From assembly GCA_012735465.1 (NCBI GenBank), contig JAAYHJ010000015.1, forward strand, positions 1 through 64,000: a stretch of 64,000 bases of DNA. The letters run 5' to 3'. The position numbers were made by a program, and so were the translations under genes. Shown one piece after another: positions 52,778 to 60,091 of this stretch (positions are counted from its first letter, which is position 1; the number at the start of each line of letters is the position of its first letter). A model generated the notes under the pieces. The model searched no databases. It was given only the letters and a program-made list of their open reading frames with translations, and had not been told where the DNA came from. Origin of the DNA: Clostridiaceae bacterium (GTDB lineage Bacteria > Bacillota > Clostridia > SK-Y3).

Positions 52778-54190
52778 TTACATCATATTGTTTTGAGCCA
52801 ACAGTCGGTATAACATAGTAGCAGCCTCAGCACGGGTTGCAGCTACATACGGTGCAAAGGATCCATTGGGCATCCCCATGATAATCTTCATATCATTTGC
52901 AATATATACAGCTTTCTTTGCCCAGCTGCTGATATTTGCATCATCAGTAAAAGTCATCTGAGAAGAAGGTTCCATTTCAGCATATTTATTTCCGGTTATA
53001 TAATCATATGCTCTCATTATCATTACTGCCATTTGTTCTCTTGTAATTTTTAAGTCCGGAGCAAACCTGTTATCTCCTACGCCAAATACGATACCGGTCT
53101 TAGCAGCAGTCATGACAGCATCATAATACCATCCCCCCGGCTTCACATCGGTAAATTCTACCTCGTAGCCACCTTTTTCCAAATTCAACGCATTCACAAT
53201 CATTGTTGCAAATTGAGCACGGGTAATATGTCCGTCAGGATTAAAGGTACCATTGGGCATACCTTTTATAATATTTTTTTCTGCCATTTTAATAATGGTG
53301 TCTTTTGCCCAATGCCCTTGTATATCGCTAAAATAAATCTCTTCTTGTATAGTTGTTGGCTCGGTTAATTCATCTATTACAGTAACAGTACAAGTGGCAG
53401 TCTTGCTTGAATCACTTATCGACTTTGCAGTAATGGTAGCTGTTCCGGGTGCCTTACCATAAACCTGGCCCCTTTGCGAATCATATACCGCAATACTTAC
53501 ATCGCTCGAACTCCATTGTACTCCTTTTTCAGTAGCATTTACAGGAGTTATTATAACCGAAATATCCTTATACTCTCCTACCTTTAAAACCATAGAAGAA
53601 GGGTCAACGTAAATTCCCGTAACTTTAACTTCCTTGGTACCTCCACTGCTTCCGCTGCTACCGCCGCCACCGCCGCTTCCGCCGCCATCGCCGGCGCCAC
53701 CTTGTGATTCAACATTTATTAATGCCTGCTTATTTACAGTATAAACACTACTTTCAGTATCATCACCTACCCTGTCTATTACCTTTACAGAAAGCAAATC
53801 TATTTTAATTTGTTCGGCTTTTAATGCTCTAAAGGTAAGTGTAGCCAAAGAAATATCGCCCTTTTCCTCTGGGACATTACCTATTTTTGTAAAACCAAAG
53901 GTGATTCTAGTGCCGTCTATCGCTGGTCCTACTGAAAATCCTAAAGGAATATCTGTTTTTGCGCTTACAAGTTCCAATTTTTGTGGCTCAAAAGATAATA
54001 CAAACTCAAAGGCATATAGCTCTGGAATATTTGTTCCTGCTATTTCAACGTCAAATATTTCCCCCTGTCCAACGGTAGAAGGTGCTATAATGGAAAAATC
54101 AGTGCTTTGTGCATATACCACACCCATCGGAACTACCATGGTACATACAAAAACAATCATTAGTATGTAGGTGTTTATCTTTTGTCTCAT
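52778..54190 (-). CDS. Surface protein: cohesin-like domain, Big2 domain, three SLH repeats
   Basis: A 470-residue exported protein. Signal peptide 1-27 (cut after VYA); cohesin-like beta-sandwich about 31-161 (FSIIAPSTVGQGEIFDVEIA, FEFVLSFEPQKLELVSAKTD); Gly/Ser linker 164-185; Big2 Ig-like domain about 188-273 (LKVGEYKDISVIITPVNATE, GTATITAKS). Three SLH modules follow at about 287-340, 345-398 and 413-466, with FSDIQGHWAKDTIIKMAE, FTDVKPGGWYYDAVMTAAK and FTDDANISSWAKKAVYIAND. SLH modules bind pyruvylated wall polymer, so the protein should display its cohesin on the cell surface. That is the design of an anchoring scaffoldin with a single cohesin. It lies directly downstream of the dockerin-bearing GH3 gene, on the same strand, behind a terminator and its own promoter. 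Confidence 0.85.
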   Translation of the reverse strand: MRQKINTYILMIVFVCTMVVPMGVVYAQSTDFSIIAPSTVGQGEIFDVEIAGTNIPELYAFEFVLSFEPQKLELVSAKTDIPLGFSVGPAIDGTRITFGFTKIGNVPEEKGDISLATLTFRALKAEQIKIDLLSVKVIDRVGDDTESSVYTVNKQALINVESQGGAGDGGGSGGGGGSSGSSGGTKEVKVTGIYVDPSSMVLKVGEYKDISVIITPVNATEKGVQWSSSDVSIAVYDSQRGQVYGKAPGTATITAKSISDSSKTATCTVTVIDELTEPTTIQEEIYFSDIQGHWAKDTIIKMAEKNIIKGMPNGTFNPDGHITRAQFATMIVNALNLEKGGYEVEFTDVKPGGWYYDAVMTAAKTGIVFGVGDNRFAPDLKITREQMAVMIMRAYDYITGNKYAEMEPSSQMTFTDDANISSWAKKAVYIANDMKIIMGMPNGSFAPYVAATRAEAATMLYRLLAQNNMM

Positions 54191-54386
54191 AATATCCTCC
54201 TTTTAAAATAACATGCTTCCAATAAATTAAACTTCACATTGCCTTAGTCAGCAATACTCCTCTTTCCTTTATTCAAAGAGTGCTCTTTCAAAATGTTACC
54301 TGCATTTACCATAGCTCTCCAAGGGCTTAAATTCCGATGTGACGACACTTAATTATATTATATAATACCAAGGCCTATGGACGCAA
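54191..54386 (-). promoter_or_regulatory. Promoter and long structured leader of the SLH-cohesin gene
   Basis: On the minus strand TTGCGT (54386-54381), 18 bases and TATAAT (54362-54357) form a candidate promoter. About 160 bases of untranslated leader follow. They contain an AAAGAG-CA-CTCTTT hairpin, a TTGC/GCAA hairpin, and the strings CCTTGGAGAGC and AATAAAGGAAAGAGGAG. Then comes AAAGGAGG before the ATG. It looks more structured than a plain leader, but I could not match it with confidence to a known riboswitch class. Confidence 0.45.
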
Positions 54387-54438
54387 ATACTATTCGTATA
54401 TTCTTATCAGTTGCCCATAAATAAGTATAAATACTAAA

Positions 54439-54472
54439 AAAAGAGGATATGTCCGTGGACATACCCTCTTTT
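54439..54472 (-). terminator. Terminator after the GH3 gene
   Basis: The stem GAGG-TATGTCC with GGACATA-CCTC (54439-54454 with 54457-54472, one mismatch), followed on the minus strand by seven T. It separates the GH3 transcript from the SLH-cohesin gene. Confidence 0.85.
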
Positions 54473-54519
54473 CCCAACAGAGGATGTATCCCCTTATGCC
54501 AGCTTCCAAACCATAATTC

Positions 54520-57500
54520 TTACTCATTCCATCCCAGTATTCTTATTGCGATAAATACGAAGTCTTCAATATCTATGATTCCATCCTTGTTAACGTCTGC
54601 TTTCCTTGCAAGGTTCCAGTCGGGATCTCCTTCTTTTACTTGGTAATAGTACGCAGCAACAGCAAGGTCTCCTATGCTTATCCTTCCATCTCCGTTAACG
54701 TCTCCTGGGATACCGAATTCTTCCACGGTGATGCTCAATACATCGCCCTGTAAGCCTATTTCATCACCATCTGAAGTACCAACGGTTGCTTCAGCGGCAA
54801 TATTTCCTGTTGTCGGCGAAGCTACATTCTTACTTGCGAAGGTAAGCTTAACCAGGTCTTCACCAGCTTTTATGCTAGGTGAACTTGCAATGATGATGCG
54901 TACAACCCCGTCTTCTACTTCTTCTACTGTACATAACAATATATTGTCACTTGCTTTATCACCTGCTACAAAGTCGAACAAATCAGTGTCATAGTTTACA
55001 GTTATATCGGCAGCATATACATCATCAGTAATGTCTTCCAGTGACAAGGTAACATCAAATTCTTTTTCCACGTCAACTTTGTCCGGACCTGCAATCTTCA
55101 CACCAGCTGCAGGAGACAGTACCTTTACATAGTGACAATAGGTATCCACTATGCTGGCCGTTGCTCCGCTCTTGGTTGCAAATACACCAATATGGGTGTT
55201 GCTCAGGTTCATCTTAACAGGACTACCCAGTTGTTTATAGTTTACACCATCCTGGGAATACATACCGGTGTAAGTGTTGCCTGATTTGATGATTCTGTAG
55301 TAAACGGTCAGGCTACCGTCCTCATCCTTGGCAGGTGCATCACTACCAATCGCTGCCCAAGTTCCGTTGGTTTCACGGGAGAACTGAATCATCAATCCGC
55401 TGTTGAATTCGCAATCCATCTTGAGATAGTTATTATCATCCTGCCATACCAACATTGCAATCTGCTGGTAGTTCTCAAAAGGTGCCTGCGGATAATAAAC
55501 TTTCATTACCACATCCCAGTCACCGGCAGCAGGACGGATGAATACATTCTTCCAGTTGGTTCCTGTTTGGTGAATATCACCCTCCAGGGTAGCCAGGCGT
55601 AAACCTTTGCCTGCTTCCAGTGAGTAGTTCTCCGGATCAGGATTCAGGATTTTCCATTCGCTGTCCATGGTACCATCCATAAAGTCGTCACTGGTTGGAG
55701 CATATCCAAAGGTAATGTTATAGGTTTTCGCACCTATAATGCTGGATACCTTCACCGTTGCTACACCCGGTATTGAAGAAGCCTGTGTGACTTCTAGCTC
55801 CAGCGAGGAATCAGCTTCAGCCGCAACTACAGGAATACGAGTATCTCCTTTCTTCAGTACCACCGAGTAATTAGTCTCATCCGGTGAGAAACCTGCCAAC
55901 GGCTTACCGTCTACAGTGATGGAGGATACCGAAGGACTTGCTTCTTCATCGCTAAACACTATAAAGTATGGGAATGTTACAGCGATGGAACCGGCTGTGG
56001 AAGGACTACCATTGGTAGCCAGCAATCCAACCTTCGGGCTAAGCCAATCAGCTTCCGTTGTACCAATCAAATTAAAGTTTATACCATCGGTTGAATAATA
56101 TGCTGTATATTTAAATCCTTGCTTAGCAATACGGAAATACATATTAGTCTGGTTAGAGAGGAATACCATACTGACCTGTGATTCTACACCATCTGTAGCC
56201 TTGACCATACGTATCATGCCCCCAAACCAGAAGAACTCATAAGCGACACGGAGATAGTTGTTATTGTCGTTATAAACAATCATACCTCCCTGCTGGCTGC
56301 TCGCACTGGGCGTTGCAGAGAATTTGACGTAGGTCTGGGCATTCCATTCTCCGCCAGCATCCTGTAAGAATACGTTCTTCACAGTCTGGCCGGTAATGCT
56401 TCCTTCCTGGGTTTTAATCGTCAGGCCGTTTTCATCCAGGCTGTAGTTTTCAGCATCCGGATTGAGAATGGTCCAATGCTCGTCCAGGGTACCTTTCCTA
56501 AAATCGCTTGAAACAGGAGGATAACCAAAAGCTATTGTATACGTAAACGATATACCGCTATTATTCGTCACGATTGTAGCAACACCTGGAACAGATTGTG
56601 CCTGATTAATGGTTATCTGTGTATCGGGATCATTGCTATAAGCCGTAACCACAGGAACACTGCTACCCTTAGGTACATTTACTGCATACCCGAAAGTATT
56701 GCTGTCAAAACCATCCAGCGGTTTACCGTCGATACTGATTCCGTCTAATTTTGCATCAGCTTTAACATATACGATGAAATCCGTGGACTTGCTTATGCCA
56801 TTATAGGTTACGGTAGCTGTAATGGTAGCCACACCAACCTTATCTCTCGTACGTATCACATTGTTCTCATCCACCGATACAATGGAAGGACGGTTACTGC
56901 TATACTTAACTGTCATGCCTTCCGGCAAGTCTTTACTCTTGCCCTTTGTGATATAACCATAGAGGGTTTCATCATTCATTGCAACGGTGACCTGCGGAAT
57001 TACAACTTTATTCTTGTCGAAAAGTAAACGTTTTGGAATATCCTTTTCCTTGTCGCCTTCCTGGATAGCCTTTACGGTTACAACTTCAATTTCATGCCTT
57101 AAGGTACCGGTTACATTGATGAAATCCTGGAGCTGTATATCTTCATCAGCACTGGACTTACTGATCTGGATGCCATAGCGGCCGTTATCCACCACATATC
57201 TGCCCAATTCTTCATTAAAGAATGCCAAATCTTCTACTTTTACGGTTATTGTAACCGTCTTGGTCTCACCCGGTTCAAGGTTAACCTTTTCAAATCCTTT
57301 CAGACGCTTAATCGGGCGTTCCAGTGCAGGATCAGCGTCAGGTGTTGTAACATACAGCTGTACAACCTCGGCTCCGGCTACATTACCGGTGTTCTTAACA
57401 TCTACGCTTACCTGGAAGGTATCGTTTGCATCCAATTCCTTCTTATCAATCCTGAGATTGGAATATTCAAAGGTGGTATAGCTCAAACCATAACCGAAGG

Positions 57501-59544
57501 GATAGGATACCGGTCCATTGAAATACATGTACGTACGACCGTTGAGCTCATCGGTAGGTCTGAGGGTATAATCGGTAATCGGCCCAAGCTGGGAAACACT
57601 CTGGTACCATGTAAATGGCAGGCGTCCACTGGGATTGTATTTGCCCATCAATACATCCGCCAAACCAGCTCCCTTTTGCTGTCCGTTGTAGCCGCTCCAG
57701 AGCATTGCGGATACATAAGGCTCAAAGGATGTAACCTCATTCATGCTAATGGTTTCCATAACAACAACGGTATTGGGGTTGCCCTGGGCTATCTGCTTAA
57801 TCAACTCGGCCTGTGCACCCGGTAAAGTAAGATCTGCGCGGTCTCCCTGCTCATTTGCAGTTCCACCGTCGGTACCTACATATACAATGGCAAGGTCTGC
57901 TGCTATGGCAGCCGCTACATGTTCACTATTGATATCGGTAAGTTGGGATGCCTGAGTGCCGGTATTGGTAAATCCCTTATAGAAGGTAACGGTAGCTTCG
58001 GGGTTAACAGCTAAAATAGCATCTCTTATACCCTGGTACGGATTTACCATCTTATCTGCCTTGGAAGCTCCCTGGTTACTGGAATAACCGCCAAAATACA
58101 TGCTGGGAGGATTTGCAAAATGTCCAACCACTGCAACGTTAAACGGACCGGATTCAGGAATCTGCAGAGGCAGAAGCTTACCTTTTGTTCCGTCCTTCTT
58201 GGTTGTCTCACTGTTTTTGAGCAGTACCAATGCTTTTGCAGCAATTTCCCTGGCCAATGCTAACCTTTCAGGAGTTTCGGTAACAGCACCGTTATCATCG
58301 CTATTTACCCATGTGCCCCTTGGGAGACGTTCACGAGCTTCTCTTACCCATTTTACCTTATCATCTTCAAATTCACCCAGTTGTATACGGGCCTCAAACA
58401 GGCGTTGCAATGAAACGTCCAGCTCATGTTCTGTGAACAAACCGGTTTCAGTAGTAATATTGCGGGCAACGGTAGTAGGCAGCGTATTTCCATATCCTAA
58501 ACCATCGGTGTAACCGGCATTACAGTTGAGGTCTACACCGGCGGAAAGTGAAAAAGCCATTCTTTCTACCTGGTCTACCGGACGGTCCCATCCTGGTGGA
58601 ATCCAACGGTGGCTCTGGCTGATATCCATGATGGAGTCACAGTCGGAAGTAACATATCCGCTAAATCCCCATGTCTGACGCAGCAGATTATCTACCAAAT
58701 ATACACTGGCAGATGTAGGTACACCGTTTACACGGTTATAAGAAGTCATTACCGAACGAACATCCGTCTTCTTTACAATATTTCTGAAAGTTGCAGTATA
58801 ATATTCTCTTATGGAACGTTCATCCGTATCGGAAGAACCGGTACGGCGGTTGACTTCACTATTGTTGAGCGCATAATGCTTTAAAGTGGTAATCGATTTG
58901 AGGTAACCATCGGGATCCAACAGGTTACCATTCATATCCTTACCTTCCATACCGTTTACAAATTGAGAAGCAATTTCGGTAGTCAGGAACACGTCTTCTC
59001 CGTAGGACTCGTCGTTACGGCCCCAGCGTGGGTCACGGGCAAGGTTTATGGTTGGTGACCAGAAAGTCAGTGATAAACGATTGTCCGGCACCACTTCACG
59101 GGCTTCGTCGGAAATCGCTACCGCATTGCGGTAAACCAATTCTCTATCCCAGGTTGAACCCATTGAAATATTAATAGGATAGGAAGTGGTATTAATAAGA
59201 ACCGTGGCATTACCCGAAGAATTATACTGAAGACGGGCAACACCGTGTAAAGCCTCGTTCCACCAACCGTAAGACTCGATACCAAGACGTGGGATGGCAG
59301 GAGCTTTACTACTGATCATTTGCGAAGCTTTTTCTGCTAAGGTCATACGAGCAACGAGGTCCGCAGCTCTTTCGGCAAAGGAATAAGAGGTATCCAGATA
59401 AATTGGAGTTTCTGGTTCGGTGTTCTCAGCCATAAGGAATACAGGGCTGTCCTCCTCAACAGCAAGAACCGGCATGGTACTAATAAGGCTCAAACAGAGG
59501 CTTATGGCAAGTACCAGGCACAAAATGCGTTTGCTTTTTTTCAT
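54520..59544 (-). CDS. Multidomain GH3 glycosidase with cohesin and dockerin modules
   Basis: A 1674-residue exported enzyme. The start is the ATG at 59544 (MKKSKRILCLVLAISL), with GAGAGG 8 bases upstream. Domains: signal peptide 1-28; GH3 catalytic barrel about 45-400 with nucleophile Asp301 in GFSGYVTSDCDS; GH3 C-domain about 435-685 with GGTANEQGDRADLTLPG holding a likely acid/base Glu565. Next are FnIII-like about 695-800 and an Ig/Big-like domain 840-928. Two copies of an Ig-like plus ConA-like pair follow (932-1195 and 1203-1473), then cohesin-like 1480-1608 and a type I dockerin 1611-1672 with two Ca-binding repeats (GDVNGDGRISIGDL, ADVNKDGIIDIEDF). The catalytic region is of the plant-type beta-xylosidase/alpha-arabinofuranosidase branch. 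Carrying both cohesin and dockerin, it could bind a scaffold and receive another enzyme. Confidence 0.9.
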   Translation of the reverse strand: MKKSKRILCLVLAISLCLSLISTMPVLAVEEDSPVFLMAENTEPETPIYLDTSYSFAERAADLVARMTLAEKASQMISSKAPAIPRLGIESYGWWNEALHGVARLQYNSSGNATVLINTTSYPINISMGSTWDRELVYRNAVAISDEAREVVPDNRLSLTFWSPTINLARDPRWGRNDESYGEDVFLTTEIASQFVNGMEGKDMNGNLLDPDGYLKSITTLKHYALNNSEVNRRTGSSDTDERSIREYYTATFRNIVKKTDVRSVMTSYNRVNGVPTSASVYLVDNLLRQTWGFSGYVTSDCDSIMDISQSHRWIPPGWDRPVDQVERMAFSLSAGVDLNCNAGYTDGLGYGNTLPTTVARNITTETGLFTEHELDVSLQRLFEARIQLGEFEDDKVKWVREARERLPRGTWVNSDDNGAVTETPERLALAREIAAKALVLLKNSETTKKDGTKGKLLPLQIPESGPFNVAVVGHFANPPSMYFGGYSSNQGASKADKMVNPYQGIRDAILAVNPEATVTFYKGFTNTGTQASQLTDINSEHVAAAIAADLAIVYVGTDGGTANEQGDRADLTLPGAQAELIKQIAQGNPNTVVVMETISMNEVTSFEPYVSAMLWSGYNGQQKGAGLADVLMGKYNPSGRLPFTWYQSVSQLGPITDYTLRPTDELNGRTYMYFNGPVSYPFGYGLSYTTFEYSNLRIDKKELDANDTFQVSVDVKNTGNVAGAEVVQLYVTTPDADPALERPIKRLKGFEKVNLEPGETKTVTITVKVEDLAFFNEELGRYVVDNGRYGIQISKSSADEDIQLQDFINVTGTLRHEIEVVTVKAIQEGDKEKDIPKRLLFDKNKVVIPQVTVAMNDETLYGYITKGKSKDLPEGMTVKYSSNRPSIVSVDENNVIRTRDKVGVATITATVTYNGISKSTDFIVYVKADAKLDGISIDGKPLDGFDSNTFGYAVNVPKGSSVPVVTAYSNDPDTQITINQAQSVPGVATIVTNNSGISFTYTIAFGYPPVSSDFRKGTLDEHWTILNPDAENYSLDENGLTIKTQEGSITGQTVKNVFLQDAGGEWNAQTYVKFSATPSASSQQGGMIVYNDNNNYLRVAYEFFWFGGMIRMVKATDGVESQVSMVFLSNQTNMYFRIAKQGFKYTAYYSTDGINFNLIGTTEADWLSPKVGLLATNGSPSTAGSIAVTFPYFIVFSDEEASPSVSSITVDGKPLAGFSPDETNYSVVLKKGDTRIPVVAAEADSSLELEVTQASSIPGVATVKVSSIIGAKTYNITFGYAPTSDDFMDGTMDSEWKILNPDPENYSLEAGKGLRLATLEGDIHQTGTNWKNVFIRPAAGDWDVVMKVYYPQAPFENYQQIAMLVWQDDNNYLKMDCEFNSGLMIQFSRETNGTWAAIGSDAPAKDEDGSLTVYYRIIKSGNTYTGMYSQDGVNYKQLGSPVKMNLSNTHIGVFATKSGATASIVDTYCHYVKVLSPAAGVKIAGPDKVDVEKEFDVTLSLEDITDDVYAADITVNYDTDLFDFVAGDKASDNILLCTVEEVEDGVVRIIIASSPSIKAGEDLVKLTFASKNVASPTTGNIAAEATVGTSDGDEIGLQGDVLSITVEEFGIPGDVNGDGRISIGDLAVAAYYYQVKEGDPDWNLARKADVNKDGIIDIEDFVFIAIRILGWNE

Positions 59545-59625
59545 GAATAATTCCTCTCCCTTCAGAATTTTATATTTTTCATTAATTCCGCCCTGACTTA
59601 TGATTGTGCGGACGGATATCATCAA

Positions 59626-59650
59626 CCGGATTAGGATATAACTAACCCGG
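59626..59650 (-). other. Leader hairpin between the lipoprotein and GH3 genes
   Basis: The inverted repeat CCGGATTAG/CTAACCCGG (one mismatch) lies about 80 bases before the GH3 ATG. No U-tract follows, so it is more likely an mRNA processing or stability structure than a terminator. This supports read-through from the lipoprotein gene. Confidence 0.4.
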
Positions 59651-59680
59651 AAGATTCCTCCATCATGTATCCGCTACCTC

Positions 59681-60091
59681 TTACTGGTTATAAAAACTAT
59701 CCTCACTACCGGAAACCTTATCATATGGCCAGTCATTAATACTGCCAAGATTGTGCACATCCTTGTAACCATTGGTACTGCCTTCTTTAGAGTCGGAATT
59801 GTTCGTCCCGCCCTCAGCAGCTGCAGTAACCTTTACGCTGGTATCGCCTGTTTTTGATACGATCGTATCCTTCGGCTCAGAATTGCTCTCTCCCACCAAT
59901 CCTTTACCTTTTGTACCGTTTTGCACATTGTTTTCGGATGGCAAAATTTCCTGTGAGACATCAGTCCTTTGGACATCCGATACACCCGAATTACAGCCGG
60001 TCATCATACTCAACAAAAGAACCATCAACAAAAAGCACACAAGCAGCTTTTTACATCTGATGATTGGAATTACTATATACGGTTCAGGCAT
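59681..60091 (-). CDS. Small lipoprotein of unknown function
   Basis: A 136-residue protein with a 32-residue lipoprotein signal (LLVCFLLMVLLLSMMTGC; lipid-bearing Cys33). The exposed tail is hydrophilic and Ser/Gly/Asp/Thr-rich, likely disordered, and ends NDWPYDKVSGSEDSFYNQ. No known domain is visible. The SD GAGGAGG lies 8 bases before the ATG. It lies 136 bases upstream of the GH3-dockerin gene with no terminator between, so the two may be co-expressed. It may be a membrane-anchored spacer or partner; that is inference. Confidence 0.7.
   Translation of the reverse strand: MPEPYIVIPIIRCKKLLVCFLLMVLLLSMMTGCNSGVSDVQRTDVSQEILPSENNVQNGTKGKGLVGESNSEPKDTIVSKTGDTSVKVTAAAEGGTNNSDSKEGSTNGYKDVHNLGSINDWPYDKVSGSEDSFYNQ

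Follow-up and report, generated by a model that had tools for sequence, protein, structure and literature searches.

A linked anchor–cohesin and GH3–cohesin–dockerin gene pair as a candidate scaffoldin-free surface-display cassette in Clostridia

Two neighbouring genes from a Clostridiaceae bacterium encode a wall-anchor protein with a single cohesin (P0001) and a large GH3 enzyme that ends in a cohesin and a dockerin (P0002). Similar pairs, in which a cohesin–dockerin (Coh–Doc) protein adjoins a single-cohesin surface protein, occur at 17 loci in 11 genomes, including the window. (By the window, we mean the whole 64,000-nucleotide stretch of DNA that was analysed.) Taken as a whole, the pair seems best explained as a scaffoldin-free surface-display cassette in which the enzyme's dockerin sits on the anchor's cohesin and the cohesin of the enzyme itself acts as a second acceptor. 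We consider this explanation probable, if by no means secure. Judging from the sequences, the cassette itself looks like a real and conserved kit for surface display.

In the mechanism that we propose, the dockerin of P0002 would dock on the single cohesin of P0001, and the enzyme would thereby be fixed to the cell wall. Genomic and co-divergence data make this bond likely. The cohesin of P0002 would be left accessible and could take up other dockerins of that class; the candidate guests are a sister GH3 enzyme and two proteins encoded elsewhere in the genome, a GH3–CBM6–Coh–Doc enzyme (C92) and a Coh–FIVAR-like–Doc adaptor (C84). It is possible that the cohesin of P0002 binds such dockerins, and it is also possible that enzymes stack or daisy-chain outward from one anchor. 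Against the mechanism, we count the hairpin between the two genes, co-divergence that in part reflects shared ancestry, pairing that is not universal, and enzyme-tail cohesins that group with those of the anchors in the cohesin tree.

Modules of the two neighbouring proteins

P0001 (52778..54190, minus strand; 470 amino acids) has AAAAGGAGG just ahead of its ATG. An N-terminal signal peptide is followed by a cohesin (53702..54106, residues 29-163), a Gly/Ser linker, a Big_2 Ig-like spacer (53384..53623, residues 190-269; Pfam 4.3e-13), and three SLH repeats (52799..53335, residues 286-464) with the motifs ITRAQ, ITREQ, and ATRAE, which Pfam matches in 3 stretches at 2.7e-42. The cohesin matches PF00963 at 8.4e-7 and passes the curated cut-off of that family (29.7 vs 24.1 bits), and our tree places it in what we call the anchor clade. 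Its AlphaFold2 model, which like that of the P0002 tail was built solely from sequences of the window and of the retrieved loci, is confident (pLDDT 96.5, pTM 0.89), and when the model was compared to solved structures with Foldseek, the first 34 ranks were all cohesins, with those of Clostridium perfringens on top; the matches include cohesins from C. perfringens and A. fulgidus and type II cohesins. By sequence, a phmmer search of the PDB with this cohesin alone gave no match, but a 13-sequence profile of the anchor clade does match type II cohesins among the solved structures. A csaB-type gene is expected where SLH anchoring operates, and because the same genome encodes a csaB-type pyruvyl-transferase homologue (PF04230), it is plausible that P0001 is anchored to the wall. 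P0001 also falls under the definition of SLH-anchoring scaffoldins in PMC11557425, which asks for a pairing of an SLH domain with one cohesin or more.

P0002 (54520..59625, minus strand) is listed at 1701 amino acids, but the ATG at 59544 is the likely start, which would give 1674. Its domains, which reach their Pfam cut-offs, run from a signal peptide through GH3, an Fn3-like domain, and two lectin-like folds to the cohesin and the dockerin. The GH3 fold of the catalytic part (57106..59400, residues ~76-840) is clear from the sequence: Pfam finds both the N and C domains of GH3, and the SDCDS nucleophile motif is present. We predict that the activity is beta-xylosidase-like, as the nearest solved structure is a xylan 1,4-beta-xylosidase (7vc7, 3.4e-84) and the NCBIfam model xylosidase_Xyl3A matches at 1.3e-136, yet under that model's cut-off. 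Next come two lectin-fold modules of the DUF1349/ConA-like kind, set apart by Cadherin-like spacers (55126..56508, approximately residues 1040-1500; PF07081, PF17851, and PF12733).

The cohesin of P0002 (54715..55107, residues 1507-1637) belongs to the clade that we call the tail clade and is merely 17% identical to the cohesin of P0001. Pfam (6.7e-10; 39.7 bits vs the PF00963 cut-off of 24.1), phmmer (5.6e-7 to the cohesin of NagJ), and the AlphaFold2 model (TM 0.85-0.88 by Foldseek to 2jh2 and 2vo8, crystal structures of cohesins from C. perfringens) all identify it as a cohesin. The models of both window cohesins have the jelly-roll fold of this family. The dockerin (54529..54711, residues 1639-1699; Pfam 8.5e-8) passes the cut-off of Dockerin_1, PF00404 (32.7 vs 22.9 bits); it forms three helices in the AlphaFold2 model, and both of its Ca2+-binding F-hand loops, DVNGDGRISIGD and DVNKDGIIDIED, are intact.

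So Pfam and AlphaFold2 with Foldseek bear out the first-pass annotation, which had described a protein with three SLH repeats and a single cohesin beside a large GH3 enzyme with a dockerin and a cohesin. It had also called the dockerin type I. We reject this as a functional class: it is just the name of the Pfam family and is silent on specificity, and the nearest solved dockerin by sequence, 2y3n_B (1.1e-6), comes from an entry that is labelled type II. And it had called the enzyme's cohesin internal. The cohesin is present, but it lies directly before the dockerin, almost without a linker.

This close spacing matters for two other readings of the tail. Many of the related tails have linkers of about 0-3 residues, and in several, 77-177 residues of FIVAR-like or Ig sequence lie between the cohesin and the dockerin (the stretch in L164 is FIVAR in Pfam). 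One reading is that the dockerin folds onto its own cohesin, so that both are masked until the anchor cohesin competes. All of the tails have the two modules in one chain, and the long linkers of some of them would permit folding back. But given the usual linker of almost zero, the geometry makes it unlikely that a dockerin could reach the binding face of its own cohesin, and the AlphaFold2 model of the P0002 tail (pLDDT 93.3) gave no firm arrangement of the domains (pTM 0.73), so the orientation of one to the other is uncertain. We think that such a clasp is very improbable.

The other reading is simple anchoring: the SLH cohesin takes up the dockerin, and the cohesin adjacent to the dockerin is a structural partner module and not an acceptor, by analogy to the X module of X-dockerin dyads or the FIVAR of FIVAR-Doc. 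Abutting modules are what we would see in a rigid dyad, and in partial correlations the dockerin co-diverges more with the anchor cohesin than with the cohesin beside it (see below). On the other hand, a rigid dyad fits poorly with the tails that have long stretches between the modules or with an enzyme that has two cohesins in tandem (L062). Also, cohesins of the enzyme-tail kind in G002 and G474 are on SLH proteins that have no dockerin of their own, and these look like acceptors. Finally, the acidic residue 1540 of P0002 is in what we take to be strand 3, where known cohesins carry acidic residues that contact dockerins, and 29 of 39 tail cohesins have D or E at the matching position. Simple anchoring seems unlikely to us, and we prefer the cassette whose enzyme cohesin would be a second acceptor.

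A strong terminator-like hairpin (54434..54477, minus strand; 20 paired positions and a T-rich tail) separates P0002 from P0001, so the two genes are neighbours but not an obvious operon. The hairpin parts the two genes here even though their adjacency is conserved elsewhere.

Just upstream of P0002 is a small lipoprotein, P0003 (59681..60091, minus strand; lipobox-like MTGC), which we reject as a component of the system; it is probably unrelated. It matched no Pfam family, and it was not seen to recur beside the other pairs. It ends in GYKDVHNLGSINDWP, which resembles the end of a rhodanese domain and could be a remnant of one, as the remainder of the domain is absent; in a single pair comparison with an SLH-rhodanese protein, BLASTP gave 2e-5. 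In L091:8527-9513, an SLH protein has the rhodanese domain intact, and it adjoins another pair of Coh–Doc and Coh–SLH genes.

Cohesins and dockerins elsewhere in the genome

The source genome (2.32 Mb, 98.6% complete) encodes 5 cohesins, one per protein, and 6 clear dockerins, and we consider all of these to be part of the picture. The search of this genome turned up no multi-cohesin protein and thus none of the scaffoldins with several cohesins that define a cellulosome. In phylogenies that also cover related genomes, the cohesins of enzymes and those of anchors separate mostly into two clades, and the dockerins sort into broad classes, which is all that we use the dockerin tree for (it has 61 columns and is poorly resolved).

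Outside of the window, C92 is a GH3–CBM6–Coh–Doc enzyme with no adjacent anchor. C16 (L060:9194-10336) is a second single-cohesin anchor with 3 SLH repeats, and its cohesin is outside the main anchor group. C84 (L059:4555-5589) is a Coh–FIVAR-like–Doc protein of 344 amino acids that combines a cohesin of a second class with a dockerin of the window's class. C33, C9, and C68 have dockerins only. One class comprises the window's dockerin and those of C92 and C84 (68% and 59% identical to the window's, respectively), while identity and the tree put those of C33, C9, and C68 (30-33% identical to the window's) in other classes. The dockerins of C9 and C68 (L007 and L008) are of the GDAILILR type; one is in a 2863-amino-acid frame and the other is in a secreted protein of 232 amino acids. 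Also, two genes upstream of C92 on its contig is an SLH-repeat protein in which a cohesin was not detected (L058:3094-4122).

With 5 cohesins and 6 clear dockerins to choose from, including the second Coh–SLH anchor (C16), the window's modules could have other partners: the SLH cohesin might recruit the dockerin proteins C9, C68, C33, C84, or C92, and the GH3 dockerin might use another cohesin. However, the dockerins of C9, C68, and C33 are of other classes. Dockerins of the C9/C68 class are also found in G003, where they adjoin a Coh–SLH protein (L099), and because the cohesins of C16 and C84 cluster with that protein's, they more likely belong to a separate second system. The conserved adjacency also favours the window pair, and we regard a swap of partners as quite unlikely. 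From its two modules, C84 may be an adaptor that joins the second system to that of the window.

Recurrence, co-divergence, and minimal genomes

We searched 391 class-level genomes with alignments of the tail and the anchor and 399 phylum-level genomes with the tail alignment only. Coh–Doc tails were found in 22 of the 391 and in 10 of the 399, so the earlier remark that an enzyme with both partners is uncommon is half right: such proteins are rare in these genomes, but similar ones have been published (see below). A scan of genome contigs with a cohesin pattern returned a single locus, which was very informative. The cluster on DUMB01000098.1 (MAG Clostridiaceae bacterium AS04akNAM_34) encodes a Coh–SLH anchor together with a GH2–Coh–Coh–Doc, a GH53–Coh–Doc, and another GH2–Coh–Doc enzyme, and three further pairs are elsewhere in this MAG (L091, L092, and L094). 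Other pairs from the same family are in G003 (two) and G001, and the wider searches gave pairs in G322, G160, G312, G270, G233 (two), G356 (two), and G617. The 17 loci include L099, even though it has the second dockerin class; we did not count L203 or L201 (an SLH protein in which a cohesin was not detected).

The anchors of these pairs vary. Besides SLH, there are CWB2 (G617), a C-terminal transmembrane helix (L166, L167, and L169), and an N-terminal one (L168 and L170); the C-terminal kind occurs in G270, G233, and G356, and helices of both kinds were read off the sequence. The anchor in G312 (L165) is cut at the end of a contig. The enzymes vary too: Coh–Doc loci have GH3, GH2, GH53, GH38, GH10, GH9-like, GH30, GH85, metallophosphoesterase, beta-helix, and esterase-like proteins.

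Could the neighbourhood be an accident, or could the modules be vestigial? The hairpin between the genes would fit with this, as would the genomes that have Coh–Doc tails with no neighbouring anchor: about 12 Coh–Doc loci lack one, including the C92 gene. (Some of the loci were retrieved for the very reason that they matched both profiles, so the ratio of 17 to about 29 is not an unbiased rate.) But of the several thousand genes in a genome, no more than a handful encode an anchor cohesin, so we estimate that chance adjacency should be seen at well under 1% per locus, and we saw 17 loci. And the calcium loops and the folds are intact. We find an accident or a vestige hardly credible.

There are also variant layouts. 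In L176:6065-8500 (G239), a single chain combines a dockerin with SLH repeats and a cohesin of the anchor side, and search matches suggest a similar layout in G275. The layout is reversed in L057:8827-13680 (G002) and L202:4158-9232 (G474), where GH53, one or more cohesins, and SLH are in one protein. In both cases, a small CBM-like–Big_4–dockerin protein adjoins it.

We built a tree of 60 cohesins, in which a branch with only moderate support (87/88) separates most anchor cohesins (17 of 19) from most enzyme cohesins (30 of 39). The labels change 7 and 8 times, as compared to 16.4 and 17.7 in shuffles. As exceptions, the tail cohesins of G312, G233, G270, and G356, and with them the enzyme cohesins of most membrane-anchored cassettes, are on the anchor side, and the cohesin of the GH53–Coh–SLH protein of G002 is in the enzyme-tail clade. 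Across 14 loci, the distances between dockerins are correlated with those between anchor cohesins (Spearman 0.71) and with those between the enzymes' own cohesins (0.62); the partial values are 0.49 and 0.26, and the tail and anchor cohesins are themselves correlated at 0.69. This mirror-tree comparison leans slightly towards the anchor cohesin as the partner of the dockerin, although it is confounded by shared ancestry.

The minimal genomes point to the same partner. G312 (99% complete) and G617 (96%) each have 1 Pfam-detectable dockerin and 2 cohesins, all within the pair. Because the only detected dockerin is that of the pair's enzyme, the anchor must bind it if the anchor is to have a partner in the same cell. 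In G474 (a single contig, 100% complete) and G002 (99%), the one detected dockerin adjoins the GH53–Coh–SLH protein, so its partner would be a cohesin of the enzyme-tail kind (in G474, the cohesins of the SLH protein match the enzyme-tail alignment). Together, these genomes suggest that both kinds of cohesin are open to dockerins of this broad class, as a chain would need. The reasoning is one of parsimony: divergent modules escape Pfam (an extra Coh–Doc in G270 was picked up by the tail alignment), and the partners could come from other cells.

Thus, the pairing of the GH3 dockerin with the SLH cohesin, as the first-pass annotation proposed it, is consistent with the recurrence of the pair, with genomes in which the modules would otherwise lack a partner, and, to a lesser extent, with co-divergence; we infer it from these. 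For chain building there is one line of support, which is that the lone dockerins of G474 and G002 adjoin an SLH protein with cohesins of the enzyme-tail kind. A bolder version is that the Coh–Doc tail is a self-polymerising connector: tail dockerins would bind both anchor-clade and tail-clade cohesins, and chains would grow from a single-cohesin anchor. We offer this tentatively and would sooner bet against it. If it is true, then linked genes would be a widespread route to multi-enzyme surfaces without a scaffoldin, with anchors and enzymes freely exchanged.

Relation to known systems and meaning

The basic idea is not new, as GH–Coh–Doc proteins with SLH anchors have been published for Paenibacillus guangzhouensis (PMC11557425). 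In that study, a protein with one cohesin and one dockerin is a monovalent adaptor, and P. guangzhouensis has 28 of these, many with GH domains, along with five SLH-anchoring scaffoldins (35 cohesin proteins are listed); the authors suggest an enzyme-rich surface that is distinct from cellulosomes. P0002 similarly joins a GH, one cohesin, and one dockerin, and SLH-cohesin proteins are the possible docking sites. By tblastn, a GH10-annotated protein on a P. guangzhouensis plasmid has a Coh–Doc tail that is 35% identical over 95% of the window's tail; no anchor is annotated beside that gene. Unlike in P. guangzhouensis, the system of the window and its relatives is reduced to two linked genes, at the extreme with a single dockerin detected in the genome, and the relatives also use anchors other than SLH.

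By both sequence (phmmer) and fold (Foldseek), the closest solved cohesins to that of P0002 are the NagJ and NanJ modules of the non-cellulosomal Coh/FIVAR-Doc system of C. perfringens (NagJ, NanJ, and NagH). These cohesins are also borne on glycosidases, and the FIVAR-Doc order of C. perfringens is seen in some of the related tails. However, the window's dockerin comes directly after the cohesin with no FIVAR, and it matches the C. perfringens FIVAR-Doc only weakly (3.7e-4). In the solved complex from C. perfringens, the cohesin and the dockerin are from different enzymes. We know of no SLH anchor that has been described for that system.

Enzyme-bearing scaffoldins are also known, such as ScaA of A. 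cellulolyticus (GH9), ScaR3 of B. cellulosolvens (GH44), and ScaO and ScaP of C. alkalicellulosi (PMC3413522, PMC6780208). Like P0002 with its single cohesin, ScaA, ScaO, and ScaP combine an enzyme and a dockerin with cohesins in one chain, and there are SLH cohesin anchors, but these proteins and ScaR3 belong to large multi-cohesin cellulosomes, while no multi-cohesin protein was found in our genome. As in type II anchoring (SdbA, ScaB/ScaA), an SLH-borne cohesin would be the wall anchor, and both the profile of the anchor clade and the model match type II cohesins. Nevertheless, there is no multi-cohesin scaffoldin and no X module here, and the likeness is remote: the C. perfringens cohesins rank first by fold.

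We found no report in the open-licence papers searched of linked Coh–Doc and anchor genes or of the swapping of anchors. What appears to be new, then, is the linked cassette with interchangeable anchors; the combination of GH–Coh–Doc with SLH was already known, so far as a prediction. The genomes with 1 detected dockerin and 2 cohesins are an unusually clean setting for the question whether one dockerin serves both the anchor and the growth of a chain. If the pairing is true, then a module of two genes would suffice to attach an enzyme to the cell wall via a cohesin–dockerin bond, across several unrelated anchors. Nature would then have a simple design for displaying enzymes at the surface, and it may be a starting point from which cellulosomes originated.
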